61,366 bases of DNA, taken from the NCBI GenBank assembly GCA_947364045.1, contig CANARN010000005.1, forward strand, positions 1 through 61,366, in the 5' to 3' direction. The position numbers and the translations under genes are program-made. Under the pieces are notes generated by a model. It had not been told where the DNA came from. It saw only the letters and a program-made list of their open reading frames with translations, and searched no databases. The first letter of the stretch is position 1. Every line of letters starts with the position of its first letter. This DNA comes from an uncultured Clostridia bacterium (GTDB lineage: Bacteria; Bacillota; Clostridia; Oscillospirales; Acutalibacteraceae). Positions 42,356-51,557 of the stretch are shown here, piece after piece.

Positions 42356-43304
42356 TTTCACTGCTCCTTAAAAAATTTTCAACTGTGCTTATAACACTGT
42401 CTGTCATTTCATCCGAATTTTCAAAATCGTCAGGGTAAATCCAAATTATATTTTCGTTCCGTCTGAACCAAGTAAGCTGTCTTTTAGCGTAACGGCGGGT
42501 TTCTCTTTTAAGATTTTCCGTACATTCGGAAAGCGTTAATTCGCCTCTGAAATACGGCGCTAATTCTTTATGCCCTATTGCCTGCGACGCGGTAGTGTCA
42601 CGGCTTAGATTAAAATATTTCTCCGCTTCATCCAAAAGTCCGTTTGCGAGCATAAGGTCGACACGTTTATTTATACGTTCGTAAAGCTTTTCTCTGTCGC
42701 GGTAATTAATTCCGATGTAAAGCACATTGTAAGGTGACGGAGAAAGCCTTGAATTTTCATACTGCTGAGTCATTGTCATTCCTGTCGATTCAAAAAGTGC
42801 CAGCGCTCTGACAATACGGCTTTTGTCTGACGGATGAAGCCTTGCCGCTGTTTCTCCGTCAATTTTTCTCAGCCTTGAAAGCATTTCTTCTCCGCCCAAG
42901 TCGTCATATTCACCGCTTATTCTTTTCCGCAGATTTTCATCTGTTTTTTGCGGACAGAAGGATATATTCTGCAAAAGCGAGTCAACATAAAGCCCTGTTC
43001 CGCCTGCAACTATCGGTAAAAATCCGTCATTGTGTATCTGCAATATGCATTTTTGCGCCGAAGAAACAAAATCCGCCACACTGAATCTGACATCAGGCGG
43101 TAAAAAGTCCATTAGAAAATGCTTTATTCCGCCCATTTCACTCGCTGTCGGCTTAGCGGTCGCAATATTCATTCCCTTGTAAATCTGCATTGAATCAGCC
43201 GACACAATCCGGCCGTTAAATTTTTGAGCAATTTTAACCGCGAGAGCTGTTTTGCCCGAAGCGGTGGGGCCTACAACGGCGATTACGGGGATTTTTTTCA
43301 TCAT
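42348..43304 (-). CDS. miaA: tRNA dimethylallyltransferase
   Basis: MiaA adds a dimethylallyl group to A37 of tRNAs reading UNN codons. The 318-residue protein begins with a P-loop, VVGPTASGKTALAVKIAQ, then VSADSMQIYKGMNIATAKPT, GGTGLYVDSLLQN and the KRQLTWFRRNENIIWI segment at the end. It overlaps mutL by 4 bases in an ATGA arrangement, with AAGG ahead of the start. MiaB, which acts on its product, is encoded further upstream in the same run. Confidence 0.96.
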   Translation of the reverse strand: MMKKIPVIAVVGPTASGKTALAVKIAQKFNGRIVSADSMQIYKGMNIATAKPTASEMGGIKHFLMDFLPPDVRFSVADFVSSAQKCILQIHNDGFLPIVAGGTGLYVDSLLQNISFCPQKTDENLRKRISGEYDDLGGEEMLSRLRKIDGETAARLHPSDKSRIVRALALFESTGMTMTQQYENSRLSPSPYNVLYIGINYRDREKLYERINKRVDLMLANGLLDEAEKYFNLSRDTTASQAIGHKELAPYFRGELTLSECTENLKRETRRYAKRQLTWFRRNENIIWIYPDDFENSDEMTDSVISTVENFLRSSENE

Positions 43305-45145
43305 TGTATCCTTCCGAACTGTTTTTCAAGCTCGCTTTTGGTAATTTCAATCATTACGGGTCTTCCATGGGGACAAAATCTCACTTCTTTATCGTTAATT
43401 ACGGTTTTAACAAGCTCATTAAGCTCCGAAGGGCTTGATTTATCCCCTGCCTTTATTGCGCTGCGGCAGGCAACATTATGGTAAATCCAGTCAAGATGCT
43501 CGTTTTCAAGGTCCTTTCTGTTTTTTAAAAGATAGCCTGCAAGCTCGCTGATTAAAGAAGAAATTTCCTGACTGTCAAGAGGTGTGGGACAACTTCTCAC
43601 TATTACCGAACCGTTGCCGAAATCCTCTGCGTCAAAGCCCGCGTGTTTTATTAAATCAAGATTTTCTAACACAGCGGAATATTCCTCCTGACTCAAGGTT
43701 ACTGACACAGGCTCAATAAGAAGCTGACTGCCGATATTATGCTCGGTGTTTTTCAGTTTATTGAAATTTATTCTTTCATGAGCGGCGTGCTTGTCGATTA
43801 CAAAAACCGAGCCGTTCATCTCAACAAAAATATATGTTTTAAAGGCTTCGCCCAATATTTTAAACTCCGCCCTTGGTGTGTCCGATGTAAAATCGCTCTT
43901 TATTTCCGCTTTAACCGTTTCTGTTTTTTGCGCGGCGGGAAATTCTATTTCAATTCCGTTTCCGTCACCTTCAGTATGATAAACGTCTGCATTTTTCACT
44001 GCGTCAAACACGGTAAAAATCCTGTCAATTGAAGCTTTTGACGGCTGAGAAATAACCGTTTGCTCTGCGGCTTTAGGTTCTTCAAAAACGCTTGCTTTTT
44101 GAAAAATTTGAGGCCTTACGCTTTGCGGCTGTGAAATTTTCGCCTGTTTAAAGCTGTCAATACCGTCAAGCTCGGATTTTACTGCGTGATATACTGAATC
44201 AAACAGCGAACGCTCATCGGAAAATCTTACCTCAATTTTTGACGGGTGAACATTCACATCAATTCTTTCGGGATTTATTTCAATGAAAAGCACACCGCCG
44301 GGAAATTTACCGACCATAACCGTATTTTTATAAGCAGCTTCAAAAGCGGCAGTTACTGTTGAATTGCGAATACTTCTGCCGTTCACAAAAAAGTACTGCA
44401 TTCCCCTTGACCCTCTTGAATTATACGGCGGCGTTACAAGACCGTGAACACGTATTCCGTTAAACTGCGAATCAACGGGAATAAGTCCGTCGCAAAAATC
44501 TCTGCCGAATGCCGAATAGCAAACATTTTTTAAGTTACCGTCGCCCGATGTTGTAAAAACATTTTTGCCGTCACGGATAAATCTTACTGACACAGCAGGG
44601 TTTGCCAGCGCTGTTTTTTCAACAGCGGCGGCAACAAAATTGCCCTCGCTCACATCTTTTTTGAGAAATTTCATTCTTGCAGGCGTATTGTAAAAAAGCT
44701 CACGTACTATAAATGTTGTGCCGACAGCGCAGCCTGCGTCAAAAATATCCGTTATTTCGCCGCCCTCAATATTAAGGCTTGTGCCGAATTCTTCGCCTTC
44801 TGTTCTTGTAATCAGATTAACCTTAGACACCGCCGCAATTGAGGGAAGCGCTTCACCTCGAAAGCCCAAGGTCATTATTGAATTTAAGTCGTCAGCGCTT
44901 GAAATTTTGCTTGTGGCGTGGCTTTGGAAGGCTGTTTCAACATCCTCACGCGCAATTCCGCAGCCGTTGTCCGTAATCCTTATGAATCTTATTCCGCCGT
45001 TCTGAATTTCAACGGTTATAGAGGTAGCTCCTGCGTCAACAGCATTTTCCATAAGCTCTTTTACAACGCTGGCGGGACGTTCAACAACCTCGCCTGCGGC
45101 TATTAAATTGGAAATTTCGGTGGGAAGCTTATTTATTTTTGCCAT
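43301..45145 (-). CDS. mutL: DNA mismatch repair protein MutL
   Basis: A 614-residue MutL with the GHKL ATPase domain: ELMENAVDAGATSI, ITDNGCGIAREDVE, and TLGFRGEALPSIAAV. The C-terminal dimerisation/endonuclease domain contains DKHAAHERINF and FCPHGRPVMIE. The classical endonuclease metal motif is DQHA(X)2E(X)4E; here the second Glu position is Asn (HERINFN), so endonuclease activity may be altered. A variable linker occupies about 335-425. It follows mutS by 36 bases. Confidence 0.97.
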   Translation of the reverse strand: MAKINKLPTEISNLIAAGEVVERPASVVKELMENAVDAGATSITVEIQNGGIRFIRITDNGCGIAREDVETAFQSHATSKISSADDLNSIMTLGFRGEALPSIAAVSKVNLITRTEGEEFGTSLNIEGGEITDIFDAGCAVGTTFIVRELFYNTPARMKFLKKDVSEGNFVAAAVEKTALANPAVSVRFIRDGKNVFTTSGDGNLKNVCYSAFGRDFCDGLIPVDSQFNGIRVHGLVTPPYNSRGSRGMQYFFVNGRSIRNSTVTAAFEAAYKNTVMVGKFPGGVLFIEINPERIDVNVHPSKIEVRFSDERSLFDSVYHAVKSELDGIDSFKQAKISQPQSVRPQIFQKASVFEEPKAAEQTVISQPSKASIDRIFTVFDAVKNADVYHTEGDGNGIEIEFPAAQKTETVKAEIKSDFTSDTPRAEFKILGEAFKTYIFVEMNGSVFVIDKHAAHERINFNKLKNTEHNIGSQLLIEPVSVTLSQEEYSAVLENLDLIKHAGFDAEDFGNGSVIVRSCPTPLDSQEISSLISELAGYLLKNRKDLENEHLDWIYHNVACRSAIKAGDKSSPSELNELVKTVINDKEVRFCPHGRPVMIEITKSELEKQFGRIQ

Positions 45146-45181: not shown

Positions 45182-47791
45182 TTACTGCTTTGCCTCGCTT
45201 GAAAGCTCATTCAGAATACTCATAGCCTCAATCGGAGTAAGCACATTTACATCAAGCGATTTAAGACGCTCAATTATACTTTCGTTCCTGCCGTCATCAA
45301 AAGAAATCTGCATATCCTCCGGCACATCGTTTTCTGTCGGAATATCCATATTCGGCTTCATTAAGTCATTATCCTCAAGAGCGCGTAAAATCACCTTTGC
45401 TCTGCTTATTACCGCATCGGGAACACCTGCCAGCTTTGCAACCTCAATACCGTAGCTGCTGTCTGCGCCGCCGGGGATTATTCTGCGTAAAAATGTTAAA
45501 TCGTCCCCGCGTTTTTTTACTGCTACATTATAATTCTTTACTCCGCCCACTTGCTTTTCAAGCTCAGACAGCTCATGATAATGGGTTGCAAACAGAGTTT
45601 TAGCACCTATTTTCTTTTTATCAGCCAAAAACTCAACAACTGCGCGCGCAATACTCATTCCGTCAAAAGTCGAAGTACCTCTGCCTATTTCATCAAGTAT
45701 AACGAGGCTGTCAGATGTGGCAAAAGATAAAATCTCCGCAACCTCGTTCATTTCAACCATAAAGGTTGACTGACCTGATGCTAAGTCGTCAGACGCGCCC
45801 ACACGGGTGAAAATTGCATCGACAATGCCGATATCCGCTGAACGCGCAGGAACAAACGAACCCATTTGTGCCATTAAAACTATGATGGCAATCTGTCGCA
45901 TAAAGGTAGATTTACCTGCCATATTGGGACCTGTAATTATCATCATTCTGTTGTCGGATTTGTTAAGAAGAGCATCATTCGGAACAAAAACACTGCCTTT
46001 TTGGAGTGCCTCAACCACAGGGTGACGCCCCTCAGAAATGCGAATAACGCCCTTATCGTTAATTTCGGGTCTGGTATAGTTGTTCTGCACCGCAACAAAT
46101 GCGAGAGAACAGATTACATCTAAAAGAGCGAGCGAGTGTGATGTTATTTGCGTTCTTATGTATTCGCCTGCGATTTTTTTTCGTATTGAATTGAGAATTT
46201 CATATTCAAGGCTTATTATTCTTTCCTGCGCGCCGAGAACCTTTGTTTCAAGAGCTTTAAGCTCTTCGGTTATGTAGCGTTCACAGTTAGTAAGAGTTTG
46301 CTTGCGTATATAATGCTCGGGAACTAACTCTTTATAGGAATTAAGCACCTCAAAGAAATATCCGAACACCTTGTTATAACCGATTTTAAGCTTTTTAATT
46401 CCCGTTTTTTCCTGCTCCTCAGCCTCAAGCTTTGCGAGAATGTCGCGCCCGCCGTTTACTATGCTGCGAAGCTCGTCTAATTCCTTATTAAAACCGTCTT
46501 TTATCATACCGCCCTCACGGACAGAAAACGGAGCGTCCTCGGAAATTGAAACTTCAATAAGCGAGCAAACATCTTCAAGAACATCCATTTCATTATAAAC
46601 GGATTTTAAAAGACTGCATTCACTGTTTACCAAATTCGCTTTAATTTCCGGCAGCCTTTTAAGCGTCGACATTAGAGAAAGCAATTCTTTGGCGTTTGCA
46701 GTATTGTAAACAACGCGGGTCATAAGCCGTTCAATGTCATAAACACCGGAAAGCAGCTTCATTTCGCTTTCACGGATTTCGGTTTTGGAATAAAGCTCAT
46801 CTACTGCGTTAAGCCTTCTTGAAATTTCAGCGCAGTCATAAAGAGGACGTTCAAGGAAAGAACGAAGCATTCTTTTTCCCATTGCGGTTTTGGTTTTATC
46901 CAGCACCCACAAAAGCGACCCTTTAGCGTTTCGGTCACGCATTGTTTCAATAAGCTCAAGGTTTCTCACGGCGGAAACGCCCAGCTTCATAAATTTGGCG
47001 TCAGTATAAAAATTCACATTTTTTATATTGTCAAGCTCTCTTTTTTGAGTTGCTTTTAAATAAAGAAGAGCAGCTCCGAGAGCTTTTGCCGCGCTCTCCC
47101 TGCCGTTCAGAGCAAGAGAAGATAAATCATTTGTATCAAAATGATTTTTTATTTCGTCCGAAGCTTTTTCAAAATCAAATTCATCGGTTAATATTTCAAC
47201 GGATGCTTCAAGCTTTTTGGATATAAATTCACTGAGTTTAGGAAAAGAGAGAGCTTCTTTATTCAGAATTAACTCAGACGGATTATATCTGCCGATTTCG
47301 TTTATTGCCCGTTGCTCAGTATTTTCGGAAAATTCGGTAAGATTGACCTCACCTGTTGAAATATCAACAAAGCCCAAGCCCACCTTACCGTCAAAGGAGC
47401 AGACAGAGGCTAAATAATTATTCTTTGACTCGTCAAGCATTGAGCTTTCAATGACTGTTCCCGGAGTTACAATTCTTATTACATCACGTTTAACTATTCC
47501 TTTTGCTGTTGCAGGGTCTTCGGTTTGCTCGCATATTGCGACTTTATATCCGCCTGAAACTAATTTTGCTATGTAAGAATCAACGCTGTGGAACGGAACG
47601 CCGCACATAGGCGCGCGCTCCTCCTGTCCGCAGTCTCTGCCGGTTAAAACCAAGTCAAGCTCTTTTGACGCTATTTTCGCATCGTCAAAGAACATTTCGT
47701 AAAAATCGCCGAGACGGAACATAAGAATAGCGTCCTTATAATTTTCTTTAATTTCAAAGTACTGTTTCATCATAGGTGAAAGCTCTGCCAT
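45182..47791 (-). CDS. mutS: DNA mismatch repair protein MutS
   Basis: This 869-residue MutS1-type protein has the mismatch-reading N-terminus with FRLGDFYEMFFDDA (the Phe-x-Glu motif), then the connector, core and clamp domains. The ATPase includes MIITGPNMAGKSTFMRQIA (Walker A), LVILDEIGRGTSTFDGMSIA (Walker B) and TLFATHYHELSELE. It is full-length and heads the mutS-mutL-miaA order typical of Firmicutes. It is 29 bases after the YlbF-like gene. Confidence 0.98.
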   Translation of the reverse strand: MAELSPMMKQYFEIKENYKDAILMFRLGDFYEMFFDDAKIASKELDLVLTGRDCGQEERAPMCGVPFHSVDSYIAKLVSGGYKVAICEQTEDPATAKGIVKRDVIRIVTPGTVIESSMLDESKNNYLASVCSFDGKVGLGFVDISTGEVNLTEFSENTEQRAINEIGRYNPSELILNKEALSFPKLSEFISKKLEASVEILTDEFDFEKASDEIKNHFDTNDLSSLALNGRESAAKALGAALLYLKATQKRELDNIKNVNFYTDAKFMKLGVSAVRNLELIETMRDRNAKGSLLWVLDKTKTAMGKRMLRSFLERPLYDCAEISRRLNAVDELYSKTEIRESEMKLLSGVYDIERLMTRVVYNTANAKELLSLMSTLKRLPEIKANLVNSECSLLKSVYNEMDVLEDVCSLIEVSISEDAPFSVREGGMIKDGFNKELDELRSIVNGGRDILAKLEAEEQEKTGIKKLKIGYNKVFGYFFEVLNSYKELVPEHYIRKQTLTNCERYITEELKALETKVLGAQERIISLEYEILNSIRKKIAGEYIRTQITSHSLALLDVICSLAFVAVQNNYTRPEINDKGVIRISEGRHPVVEALQKGSVFVPNDALLNKSDNRMMIITGPNMAGKSTFMRQIAIIVLMAQMGSFVPARSADIGIVDAIFTRVGASDDLASGQSTFMVEMNEVAEILSFATSDSLVILDEIGRGTSTFDGMSIARAVVEFLADKKKIGAKTLFATHYHELSELEKQVGGVKNYNVAVKKRGDDLTFLRRIIPGGADSSYGIEVAKLAGVPDAVISRAKVILRALEDNDLMKPNMDIPTENDVPEDMQISFDDGRNESIIERLKSLDVNVLTPIEAMSILNELSSEAKQ

Positions 47792-48282: not shown

Positions 48283-49695
48283 CTAATTATTTACAAGCTC
48301 GCCTCTGACTATCCAGTTAAGCGGCTCTGTAACCGTAACACGACAAAATTTGCCGATGAGCGAACGCTCGCCCTTAAATTCAATAATAACATTACCGTCT
48401 GTTCTGCCCGCAAGAAGTTCGGGGTTATTTTTGCTTTCTCCCTCGCAAAGCACACGGTAAGTTTTACCCTTCATTTTTGCATTATTCTGTGACGCAATTG
48501 ACTCCTGCAAATCGCAAAGCTCTTTAAACCATTTTGCCTTTTCGCTGTGAGGCACGGGGTCAGGCATCTTTTCTGCCTTAGTACCCTTTCTCCGTGAGAA
48601 AATGAAAGTGAAAAGAGATGTAAACTCAACTTCCTTTACAAGAGAAAGCGTATCGCAAAATTCCTCATAGGTTTCGCCCGGAAAGCCTACGATAACGTCG
48701 CTCGTCAGCGACAGACCTTCGATTTTTTCTTTTGCGTAATTTATAAGCTCAAGATATTTTTCTCTTGTGTAACGGCGGTTCATTTCAGAAAGCACTCTGT
48801 TGTTTCCTGACTGGAACGGCAAATGAATATGCTTTGACGCCTTTTCGCATTCTGCAATTGTGTCAATAAGCTCATGCGTGCAATCCTTCGGGTGCGAGGT
48901 CATAAAACGGATTGTAAAATCGCCCGGAAGCGCGTTAATTTTTCGCAACAGCTCTGAGAAATTGATATTTTCTTCCAAGCCCTTGCCGTAGGAATTGACG
49001 TTTTGACCCAAGAGAGTAATATCCTTATACCCCTCTGCTATTATTTGCTTTGCTTCGGCTATTATGTCCTCAGATTTTCGGCTTCGCTCTCTGCCTCGGA
49101 CAAACGGCACAACGCAGTAACTGCAAAAATTGTCGCAGCCGTACATTATGGGCAGCCACGCCTTTGCAGTTCTGTCACGGTAAACGGGCAAGCCCTCGAA
49201 GATTTCTCCGTCTGTATCAAACGCAGAAACTACACGCTTTTTGCGTGTTAAATACCGCTTTAAAAGCTCAGGTAAAAGATAATGGGCATGCGTGCCGAAA
49301 ACAATATCGACAAACGGATAGCTGTTATAAATCTTCTCTCTGATATGCGCCTGCTGCATCATACATCCGCAAAGCGCAATTATACGCTCGGGCTTTTCTT
49401 TTTTTAACTTTTTAATCGCGCCCACATTGCCGAACACTCTGTCCTCTGCATGTTCGCGTATAGCGCAGGTGTTATAAAGAATTAAGTCTGCCTCAGCGAT
49501 TTCATCTGTCATTTGAAAACCCATCTGAACAAGCATTCCCTTAATTCGCTCGCTGTCCGAAACATTGCCCTGACAACCGTATGTATGAACAAAAGCGAGA
49601 GGAATCCTGCCGAAACGAAGCAGTAAAAGCTCCTTTACGCTTTCGGCAATTTCCATCTGCTCTGTTATTTTTTCCTTTGCAACAAACTGTGTCAA
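48283..49695 (-). CDS. miaB: tRNA-2-methylthio-N6-dimethylallyladenosine synthase
   Basis: MiaB is a radical-SAM methylthiotransferase acting on A37 after MiaA. The 470-residue protein has the UPF0004 domain with TYGCQGNVSDSERIKGML and cluster cysteines in ILYNTCAIREHAED and IALCGCMMQ. The radical-SAM core CxxxCxxC is in MYGCDNFCSYCVVPFVRG, and a TRAM domain (about 400-465) is at the end. It starts just 13 bases from the hydrolase stop. Confidence 0.96.
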   Translation of the reverse strand: MTQFVAKEKITEQMEIAESVKELLLLRFGRIPLAFVHTYGCQGNVSDSERIKGMLVQMGFQMTDEIAEADLILYNTCAIREHAEDRVFGNVGAIKKLKKEKPERIIALCGCMMQQAHIREKIYNSYPFVDIVFGTHAHYLLPELLKRYLTRKKRVVSAFDTDGEIFEGLPVYRDRTAKAWLPIMYGCDNFCSYCVVPFVRGRERSRKSEDIIAEAKQIIAEGYKDITLLGQNVNSYGKGLEENINFSELLRKINALPGDFTIRFMTSHPKDCTHELIDTIAECEKASKHIHLPFQSGNNRVLSEMNRRYTREKYLELINYAKEKIEGLSLTSDVIVGFPGETYEEFCDTLSLVKEVEFTSLFTFIFSRRKGTKAEKMPDPVPHSEKAKWFKELCDLQESIASQNNAKMKGKTYRVLCEGESKNNPELLAGRTDGNVIIEFKGERSLIGKFCRVTVTEPLNWIVRGELVNN

Positions 49696-49707: not shown

Positions 49708-50646
49708 TTACCCGATTTTGTAGCATGACTGAATAAATTCAAGTATATCGCTGTAAATTCTGCTGTTATCCTCTTCATTAAGAATTTCGTGGCGAAGTCC
49801 CGGATAAAGCACCACCTCAGGCTCAATGCCTGCGTCAACAAGATTATCGGCAACAGCCAAAACGCCTCTGCCCTTTGACCCGACAGGGTCATTTGCGCCC
49901 GAAATTATGAAAATCGGCAGATTTTGCGGCAGCTTGTAAGCCCACGTATCCTCGCAAGCCTCGCAGATTACCGCGAACATATCACGGTAGCCCCGAAGAG
50001 TATATGTAAATCCGCAAAGTCCGTCGTTAGAAAACGCCAGCCTGTTCTCAGCGTCAACAGAAAGCCATGCGAGAGGGTTGTCCTTTTCACCGACAATTAA
50101 AGACGCTCCCTTATTCAGAAAATCGCTTATTTTATCAACGCGAAGCTTTTCACCGTACTTATCGCAAACCGCGTCCATAACTCCCAGAAGCGCTGAGGAA
50201 ATGTCGGGGATTTCACCCGTTCCGCAAAGAATAAGTCCTTGTATTTCCTCACCGAAATGAGCGGCATAAACCCTTGCGCAGAAAGAACCCATACTGTGAC
50301 CGAAAAGGAAATAAGGCAAATCGGGATTTCTCTTTTTCATAATTTTAGTTAAAATGTGCATATCGTCAACAAGACGTTTGTCGCCGTTCACGTGGGCGAA
50401 ATATCCGATTTCCGAACGGTCGTTTATGCTCTTTCCGTGACCTATGTGGTCATTGCCGCAAACGATAAATCCGTTTGACGCCATAAAGCGTGCGAAAGAG
50501 TCATAACGGTCAATATGCTCCGCCATTCCGTGTGTTAGCTGTAAAATGCCTATCGGAGCTGCTGAGTCATCCTCCCAAATTAAAGTATGTACCCTATTCA
50601 CACCGTTTGAAGAATTAAAATAAGCCTCTTTTTTGACAATTGCCAT
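49708..50646 (-). CDS. Alpha/beta hydrolase, monoacylglycerol-lipase-like
   Basis: A 312-residue serine hydrolase of the Hydrolase_4 family. The oxyanion-hole segment is in LQLTHGMAEHIDRYDSFARF, the nucleophile Ser in FLFGHSMGSFCARVYAAHFG, the acid in IISGANDPVG and the catalytic His in YPGLRHEILNEEDN. Such enzymes split monoacylglycerols or lysophospholipids; the native substrate is unknown. Its ribosome site, GGAGGG at 50653-50658, is directly next to the MITE-like element, which occupies the leader between promoter and gene. It is first in the long minus-strand run that leads to miaB and mutSL. Confidence 0.9.
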   Translation of the reverse strand: MAIVKKEAYFNSSNGVNRVHTLIWEDDSAAPIGILQLTHGMAEHIDRYDSFARFMASNGFIVCGNDHIGHGKSINDRSEIGYFAHVNGDKRLVDDMHILTKIMKKRNPDLPYFLFGHSMGSFCARVYAAHFGEEIQGLILCGTGEIPDISSALLGVMDAVCDKYGEKLRVDKISDFLNKGASLIVGEKDNPLAWLSVDAENRLAFSNDGLCGFTYTLRGYRDMFAVICEACEDTWAYKLPQNLPIFIISGANDPVGSKGRGVLAVADNLVDAGIEPEVVLYPGLRHEILNEEDNSRIYSDILEFIQSCYKIG

Positions 50647-50662
50647 AGTTTTCCCTCCGATA

Positions 50663-50934
50663 AGGCGAGGAGAGCCGAACCGGGTATGGTTTTAATCGGC
50701 AAATTCCCGCCTGAACTTCGTTAAAATTTTTAAAATACGGCAGTATTCCTGCTTCTTTTGCCTTGCTCAGACAAAAATTTGCTCGGTTAAAACTGCTTCC
50801 ACCGTAAATACTTGATATTCGGATGCGTTTTTGTTTTTGAGACCGCAGATTTGCTGACGCAAATCAAGGGCGAAAGGACGAAAACACGCCGAAGAGATGT
50901 ATTTACGGCATATCGGGGTCGACTCCCCTCGCCT
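50663..50934. mobile_element. MITE-like element (272 bp) in the leader of the hydrolase-miaB-mutSL run
   Basis: The ends are imperfect terminal inverted repeats of about 28 bp. The left reads TAAGGCGAGGAGAGCCGA and the complement of the right TAAGGCGAGGGGAGTCGA, agreeing at 16 of 18 positions, with scattered matches to about base 28 including TATG. TA lies at each boundary (50661-50662 and 50935-50936), as for Tc1/mariner or IS630-type insertion. The interior has a 10-bp stem, CCGTAAATAC (50802-50811) with GTATTTACGG (50899-50908), enclosing a perfect GATTTGC-TGAC-GCAAATC hairpin (50848-50865). There is no transposase gene. A 75-codon frame inside (50767-50994) is not convincing as a gene. 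Confidence 0.7.
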
Positions 50935-50962
50935 TAAACATAATAACTCATAGTAATAAAAT

Positions 50963-50991
50963 ATTATACTATATTTAATTAAGTTTGTCAC
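50963..50991 (-). promoter_or_regulatory. Promoter upstream of the MITE, for the hydrolase-miaB-mutSL run
   Basis: On the minus strand GTGACA (50991-50986), 17 bp, TATAAT (50968-50963). Transcription should begin near 50956, about 20 bases before the MITE. No terminator is evident between them. Confidence 0.8.
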
Positions 50992-51175
50992 CACTATTTT
51001 ATAAAAAAGTTAAATTTTAAAGTAGAAAATCAAAATAATAAATTTTATACAAATCACTATTTAACGGCGCTTAATTTTGTTATTTTTTATATACTTTTAT
51101 TGTAAATTATGTAAAATATGACTAAAAATTCAGGATTTTGAGCGATTTTGCATCTGATTTTTGATATACGCAAAT

Positions 51176-51233: not shown

Positions 51234-51557
51234 ATGACATATGAACAGATAGTTGCCAAGGTAAAGGATAAGTTTGCAGAGGCTGACGCATCACAGATTG
51301 ACGGTGTTGTTGCTTTGCAGATTAACCTTGAGGGCAAAAATGCAAACGGTATTTTCTATATCGAGGTTAAGGAGCATAAGGTAAATGTTGAGCCTTATGA
51401 CTACCACGACAGAAGCGCTCTTGTTACCGTTAACCCCACCAACCTTTTAAAGCTTCTTGACGGCAAGCTTGACCCTGTTGAAGCGTACAACAAGGGTAAG
51501 GTTCAAATTGACGGCGACGCAGGCGCAGTGCTTGCAGTTATCAATTTGGCAAAATAA
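51234..51557 (+). CDS. SCP2 sterol-binding domain protein
   Basis: The 107-residue protein is a single SCP2 domain. VVALQINLEGKNANGIFYIE, DRSALVTVNPTNLLKLLDGK and the GKVQIDGDAGAVLAVINLA ending are typical. SCP2 domains have a hydrophobic tunnel that binds lipids or acyl chains; bacterial stand-alone copies have no established role. It has its own promoter and terminator and codon usage like highly expressed genes (many GTT, AAG and CTT codons), which suggests abundant expression. Confidence 0.92.
   Translation: MTYEQIVAKVKDKFAEADASQIDGVVALQINLEGKNANGIFYIEVKEHKVNVEPYDYHDRSALVTVNPTNLLKLLDGKLDPVEAYNKGKVQIDGDAGAVLAVINLAK

Follow-up and report, generated by a model that had tools for sequence, protein, structure and literature searches.

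Introduction

Several families of short bacterial repeats come close to the element described here. ERIC is likewise an intergenic fold-back MITE with TA ends and target duplication that is co-transcribed with its neighbors, and RUP of Streptococcus pneumoniae is likewise a short non-coding repeat with terminal inverted repeats (TIRs) and a TA target, both according to the relevant passages of PMC2229807. In the case of Correia/NEMIS, excerpted accounts describe TIRs, TA and an RNA hairpin that can be cleaved by RNase III, and for QMITE2 of Coxiella burnetii they give TIRs of 23–29 bp and a transcript for which strong folding is predicted. For Correia and ERIC elements, effects on the mRNA that involve RNase III or RNase E are reported (PMC10969869, PMC2229807). 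The usual descriptions of MITEs, as far as the excerpted texts go, emphasize an origin in insertion sequences whose ends are related.

In this study, we describe an element in the leader of a hydrolase-miaB-mutS-mutL operon of an uncultured Clostridia bacterium. It lies in a stretch of 61,366 nucleotides, which was analyzed as a whole and is referred to as the window. A sequence-only reading of this DNA had proposed a MITE-like insertion, with a genuine cis-regulatory RNA as the alternative.

Results

Anatomy of the element at the hydrolase leader

The whole element, defined by copies elsewhere and by empty alleles, occupies positions 50661–50936 on the minus strand and measures 276 bp including one TA per side, or 272 bp between the TAs. 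Its promoter-side TIR, 5′ in hydrolase sense, is found at 50909–50936 and its gene-side TIR at 50661–50688, both on the minus strand; the arms are 28 nt long and 82% complementary, in agreement with the imperfect repeats of about 28 bp that the sequence-only reading had pointed out. The TA reported at both boundaries is also present, at 50935–50936 and 50661–50662, and the two represent the copies of a target duplication whose empty site, in genomes G018 and G019, has a single TA. Two internal hairpins, A (50802–50909) and B (50688–50796), again on the minus strand, are defined by the fold and by pair counts, and both covary across copies. The strong internal stems claimed earlier are reflected in the folding of the region, which reaches −110.5 kcal/mol as RNA (z = −8.6, with none of 200 shuffles as low) and z = −6.3 as DNA. 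No coding signal was detected in the element, and the idea that it forms a coding unit was dropped since the longest open frames (79.6 aa) are barely above those of shuffles (74.7 aa). A common TIR subtype, represented by window positions 50661–50680 and the aligned copies, contains GGGTTCGACTCCC, which we take to resemble a tRNA T-arm; this motif is absent from the other TIR subtypes.

The placement of the element, between the promoter GTGACA-N17-TATAAT (50991–50963, minus strand; genus-conserved, 11/12 matches) and the hydrolase ribosome site GGAGGG (50653–50658, minus strand; recognized by sequence, with a similar site in relatives), is as first read. Downstream, all on the minus strand, come the alpha/beta hydrolase (Hydrolase_4, 49708–50646), which is the first gene, miaB (48283–49695, TIGR01574 above cut-off), mutS (45182–47791, TIGR01070 above cut-off) and mutL (43301–45145, TIGR00585 above cut-off). 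The other side of the element faces a divergent SCP2-domain gene (51234–51554), located between upp and the hydrolase, and then upp itself. In G018, G019 and G032, the DNA directly upstream of the hydrolase resembles, by eye, the upp end instead.

Empty sites and target duplication

A hydrolase match was found in 38 of the 39 genus genomes, and the leaders of the 30 best-scoring ones were compared; among these, a contig end cuts G003 (145 bases) and G028 (189 bases) upstream, beyond the promoter. The leaders of G018 and G019 read TATGTTTAT(C/T)GGAGG at the point where the genome studied here carries the element between two TAs. The empty site is TATGTTTATCGGAGG in G018 and TATGTTTATTGGAGG in G019, to be compared in both cases with TATGTT-TA-AGGCG...CGCCT-TA-TCGGAGG in our genome. 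A single TA in these two relatives, as opposed to the two that flank the element here, means that one TA became two. A profile of 127 copies (see below), run against the 30 leaders, recovered element DNA only in our genome (G000, E 1.5e-65) and in G004 (E 3e-5), the former being the one leader with the whole element and the latter retaining a remnant there that has suffered an internal deletion. Element DNA is thus present upstream of 2 of 30 genus hydrolases, at odds with a leader conserved across genera, the arrangement that had been said to favor a riboswitch-like RNA. The hydrolase of G003 is the closest among the other 29 (94%), yet that genome has an empty site, and its DNA upstream of the gene does not resemble that of G000 and G004; G003 may have lost the element, or its leader may have another or older history.

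A second locus, on contig C18 of our genome, gives the same picture, G004 having one TA where the element sits, with a flank that is 94% identical. On C1, the element is absent in both G003 and G004, and the junction, which is less exact, is consistent with TA duplication. Element-free alleles were therefore found, when sought, at the hydrolase leader (G018 and G019) and at C18 (G004), and they show that the insertion duplicated its TA target.

A repeat family in the order

By BLAST, the genome of origin (2.01 Mb, 85 contigs) holds five near-full-length copies including the one in the window, the other four being 92, 90, 87 and 84% identical to it, together with smaller fragments and two long stretches of the element that are cut by contig ends; a profile search added two diverged copies with a different TIR type. 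Copies are located at or near the ends of contigs C77, C58, C9, C27 and C6, which suggests that the repeat interrupted the assembly and that its copy number is perhaps underestimated. A lone TIR at L014:1501–1528 (contig C10:20062) lies between two genes that look like obg and mrnC; the first gene ends at the first TAA of this TIR, and the second could begin with an ATG located 25 nt into it.

The search for further copies, which the sequence-only reading had suggested, was also rewarded outside this genome. Matches occur in 24 of the 39 genus genomes (E ≤ 0.001) and in 61 of the 197 genomes of an order sample, representing 34 of 111 genera (E ≤ 1e-4), our own being counted in both, and in 6 of the 398 genomes of an even phylum sample, where one genome from outside the class (G061) has four full-length matches. 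A TIR-pattern scan of named species genomes returned at least 117 stretches. The titles among the matches listed are uncultured Clostridia, Clostridiales, Oscillospiraceae, Ruminococcaceae, Ruminococcus, Christensenellaceae and Christensenella, plus one given as Bacillota only. In G611, nine copies are 92–99% alike, have unrelated flanks and carry TA at both ends in all nine cases. Plasmids and phages gave no match to the window copy, and the viral contigs contained one stretch with the main TIR pattern and none with the G611 TIR type. That sole stretch in the collection, on IMG/VR contig L116, is a TIR match near an amidase-like gene.

A first alignment was made from copies of 255–300 bp matching a TIR pattern; 70 were found and 68 used, one overlapping end and one copy that could not be oriented being left out. 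Sixty further copies, taken independently of the TIR pattern, were chosen by hand from the matches in the order and phylum samples (nine from G611, one to five from each other genome) and required to show a TIR and a length of 230–310 bp; 59 were kept, for a total of 127. The 68 full-length copies come from many assemblies and can be aligned as a single family with a mean identity of 63%. Their consensus fold is a three-way structure, with an outer stem formed by the TIRs and two internal hairpins; at 60 of its 68 pairs both partners have changed and still match, and paired cells amount to 92.0%, compared with 72.3% after shuffling and 38.5–48.1% with slid partners. The length is 276–282 bp in 106 of the 127 aligned copies, a constancy that, as copies were selected by length, holds inside the limits of 255–300 and 230–310 bp; shorter derivatives of the element exist. 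Among 84 distinct copies scored for orientation, 20 lie at edges and 10 overlap an open reading frame of at least 150 aa; for the remaining 54, both flanking genes run along the element in 21 cases and against it in 13, with 20 in other arrangements. The element is a member of one family that is common in related bacteria of the order.

Promoter, leader and possible effect on the operon

A TGACA/TGTTT-to-TANAAT pattern is present in 28 of the 30 leaders, 27 of them usable since the match in G020 is misplaced; by eye, G005, G017 and G020 have TGACAAA followed by TATACT. The distance from the −10 box to the ATG is 33–66 nt in 24 of the 30 leaders, as compared with 316 nt here, 95 nt in G004 with its remnant and 93 nt in G032. 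As this conserved promoter lies outside the element, the insertion altered the leader and not the promoter, and, to judge from the aligned leaders, the promoter predates the insertion. In the leaders of several close relatives, the stretch that separates the −10 box from the ribosome site (window 50940–50960) carries a direct repeat resembling TATG-N-TTATTATG, which is perhaps an operator.

With transcription assumed to start 7 nt past the −10 box, the predicted leader to the ATG measures 310 nt, as opposed to 36 nt for a leader lacking the element, close to the earlier estimates of more than 300 and about 35 bases. In the modeled leader, GGAGGG is unpaired with a mean probability of 0.47 when the element is present and 0.14 when it is absent, the values for the ATG being 0.39 and 0.43, respectively; no terminator-like site was seen on the operon strand. 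Because predicted ribosome-site accessibility is not lowered and there is no such terminator-like site, a block of translation is not predicted. It is quite probable that the operon promoter reads through the element into the operon, and the chances that the insertion measurably affects expression are about even. Only slightly less than an even chance may be given to a neutral insertion, transcribed through without measurable effect, an idea that competes with the expression effect and not with the MITE assignment. The remnant in G004, internally deleted while the hydrolase was kept, speaks for neutrality, as do the predicted accessibility of the ribosome site, which is not reduced, and the lack of a terminator-like site on the operon strand. 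Against it, a stem-rich leader of 310 nt would be a likely RNase III substrate, as described in the excerpted accounts of Correia elements. RNase III processing of the long hairpin, or a change in stability, is possible by analogy with Correia and ERIC elements.

Search for the mobilizer

Neither DDE_3 nor the NCBI IS630 model NF033545 above its cut-off was matched in any of the 39 genus genomes, weaker, partial matches to the latter being present in 11 of them. No true long element with these TIRs was found among the loci examined in these draft genomes: at 233 loci, only two inward TIR pairs are spaced 0.6–4 kb apart. One pair spans an LCP-like gene and the other acetyltransferase-like and metalloprotease-like genes (all named by eye), and both were dropped as candidates for an autonomous parent. 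Eighteen TIR-like sites without a body were also found; 16 of them were examined inward and yielded no proteins in common between loci, three of the 16 having no open frame of 90 aa for comparison. Draft genomes and MAGs often lose multicopy insertion sequences, so a missing transposase is not proof of absence.

Inside the mobile-element explanation, two finer alternatives can be considered. The element may be an ordinary IS630-type MITE, in the manner of pneumococcal RUP, whose partner is lost or missing from the assemblies. The TA duplication and the TIRs fit this idea, the pairing of RUP with IS630-Spn1 offers a precedent (relevant passages of PMC2229807), and the breaking of contigs at copies indicates that repeats are under-assembled. 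The negative searches with DDE_3 and the IS630 model weigh against it, as does G034 (99% complete), apparently the same assembly as Lapin-022 bin52: it holds copies up to 98.6% alike on different contigs, and no IS630 match above cut-off. We regard an ordinary IS630-type MITE as a serious possibility, if one that falls short of even odds.

Conserved body and matched ends

The second alternative is a structure-recognized mobile DNA, in which the enzyme would read the three-way fold and the ends near TA instead of a fixed TIR sequence; if so, the TIRs would drift as matched pairs. In register, agreement between a left TIR and its own right TIR is 90%, as against 54% with the right TIR of another cluster (41 clusters) or 44% (the 25 clusters that were not TIR-selected), and all four Watson-Crick types are used at several TIR pairs. 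The conservation of the parts was compared by mean pairwise identity. For the representatives of the 25 clusters gathered irrespective of TIR pattern, it is 0.44 and 0.45 for the TIRs, 0.50 for hairpin A and 0.55 for hairpin B; among all 41 representatives, the values are 0.53 and 0.55, 0.49 and 0.55, respectively. In these alignments, the conservation of the body equals or exceeds that of the ends, whose sequences differ between lineages and change in matched pairs. The internal covariation across distant copies exceeds what an ordinary deletion-derived MITE needs. Several TIR types are also seen within one genome, namely in G584 (L276–L278 with L319–L320), in G489 (L273–L274) and in our own (L001 with L328–L329).

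Recognition of structure would account for the agreement of each TIR with its own partner, the free use of base-pair types, the differing TIR types within a genome and the narrow length range, and it is in line with the 39 genus genomes having yielded no known transposase partner. However, the TIR types could match different unseen transposases, multicopy insertion sequences being often lost from MAGs; TA duplication is ordinary for enzymes of the IS630/mariner type; and across the 41 clusters the TIRs are no more variable than the body. Recognition of the fold thus seems doubtful to us as the way in which the element is mobilized.

DNA-level or RNA-level fold

Were the stems maintained as RNA on a particular strand, G-U would be expected to exceed A-C at the changed pairs of that strand. 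In the sense fold, six helix groups have 98 G-U versus 116 A-C cells and two groups 214 versus 21, mostly from four columns; the middle stem of hairpin B is G-U rich on the hydrolase-sense strand (177 versus 20 A-C cells). At Watson-Crick-majority pairs, the weighted G-U share is 0.45 for the hydrolase-sense strand and 0.68 for the opposite-strand fold, and a 6S control, which covers 30 of the 35 genomes that have a match, gives 0.79, with 0.66 for its opposite strand. Of the 68 unclustered copies, 44 have the better fold on the opposite strand. The pairs common to both folds, likewise unclustered, count 54 G-U versus 108 A-C, a share of 0.32 (0.19–0.45) in a set that excludes G-U-majority columns by construction and for which the 6S control has only four informative cells. 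The unclustered counts therefore lean toward the opposite strand. With 16 clusters, there are 38 G-U versus 59 A-C cells (sign p 0.44, energy p 0.15); with 41 clusters, the hydrolase-sense strand has 1727 Watson-Crick, 52 G-U, 73 A-C and 93 other cells (sign p 0.10), and the folding energy favors the sense strand in 20 clusters and the other strand in 21. No strand preference survives clustering at either level. As the pair changes show no clear strand preference, the fold looks DNA-level, and the likelier cause of the covariation is DNA-level folding or the correction of imperfect palindromes during replication; a strand-specific RNA function is not established, though the opposite-strand RNA and the G-U rich stem may have a role.

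These results also bear on the covarying stems that the sequence-only reading had associated with a riboswitch: the stems do covary, but they do so across copies at unrelated loci, and the fold consequently belongs to the element and not to the hydrolase leader. A riboswitch-like, cis-regulatory leader of the hydrolase-miaB-mutS-mutL operon with incidentally paired ends, which the stable fold, the covariation, the position between promoter and ribosome site and the G-U rich middle stem of hairpin B might suggest, is largely refuted by the empty alleles and is very improbable, since the element is absent from 28 of 30 genus leaders and sits at many unrelated loci in both orientations towards genes, positions 50600–51000 have no Rfam match up to E 10, and the hydrolase-sense strand has no overall G-U excess.

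Discussion

Further copies, empty alleles and TA duplication at two loci favor a MITE over a riboswitch-like RNA, as first proposed for this locus, and we put the probability that the element is a non-autonomous, MITE-like fold-back mobile element at roughly 90%. According to this explanation, a fold-back element, probably moved in trans by some enzyme, inserted between the hydrolase ribosome site and a promoter already in place, at a TA that was thereby duplicated. The operon promoter would then read through it, giving an mRNA that begins with a long three-way hairpin, and this hairpin could be cut by RNase III or could alter the stability of the message. As the ribosome site is positioned immediately beyond the fold and should, by prediction, stay usable, a modest effect on expression would be expected rather than a switch.

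The empty alleles document how the leader of a mismatch-repair operon was rebuilt by a mobile element. Taken by itself, the insertion is an ordinary event, if at a possibly interesting location; less ordinary is the family, a repeat common in one Clostridia order that departs from the usual picture of MITEs in having a body at least as conserved as its ends. The stronger claim of a fold-recognized bacterial mobile DNA, i.e., a long-inherited three-way body of fixed length in Clostridia, with co-changing ends and a mobilizer that is not of the IS630 type, is in our estimation unlikely. The similar copies at many sites of G611 make the question of the mobilizer testable within the family.

The family was not found described in open-license PubMed Central full text with the terms used. 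As for the known systems, no IS630 partner above cut-off was found for the element in the 39 genus genomes, whereas RUP, according to the relevant passages, is 107 bp long and has TIRs that match IS630-Spn1. Correia/NEMIS elements, in the excerpted accounts, are 107 and 155 bp long and belong to Neisseria, and cleavage of our element by RNase III is proposed by analogy with them. QMITE2, from another host, is described in its source passages with direct repeats of 7–9 bp in place of TA. Finally, ERIC is an element of 127 bp from enterobacteria, and it is by length and host that our element is set apart from it: the Clostridia element measures about 278 bp and contains two large internal hairpins.
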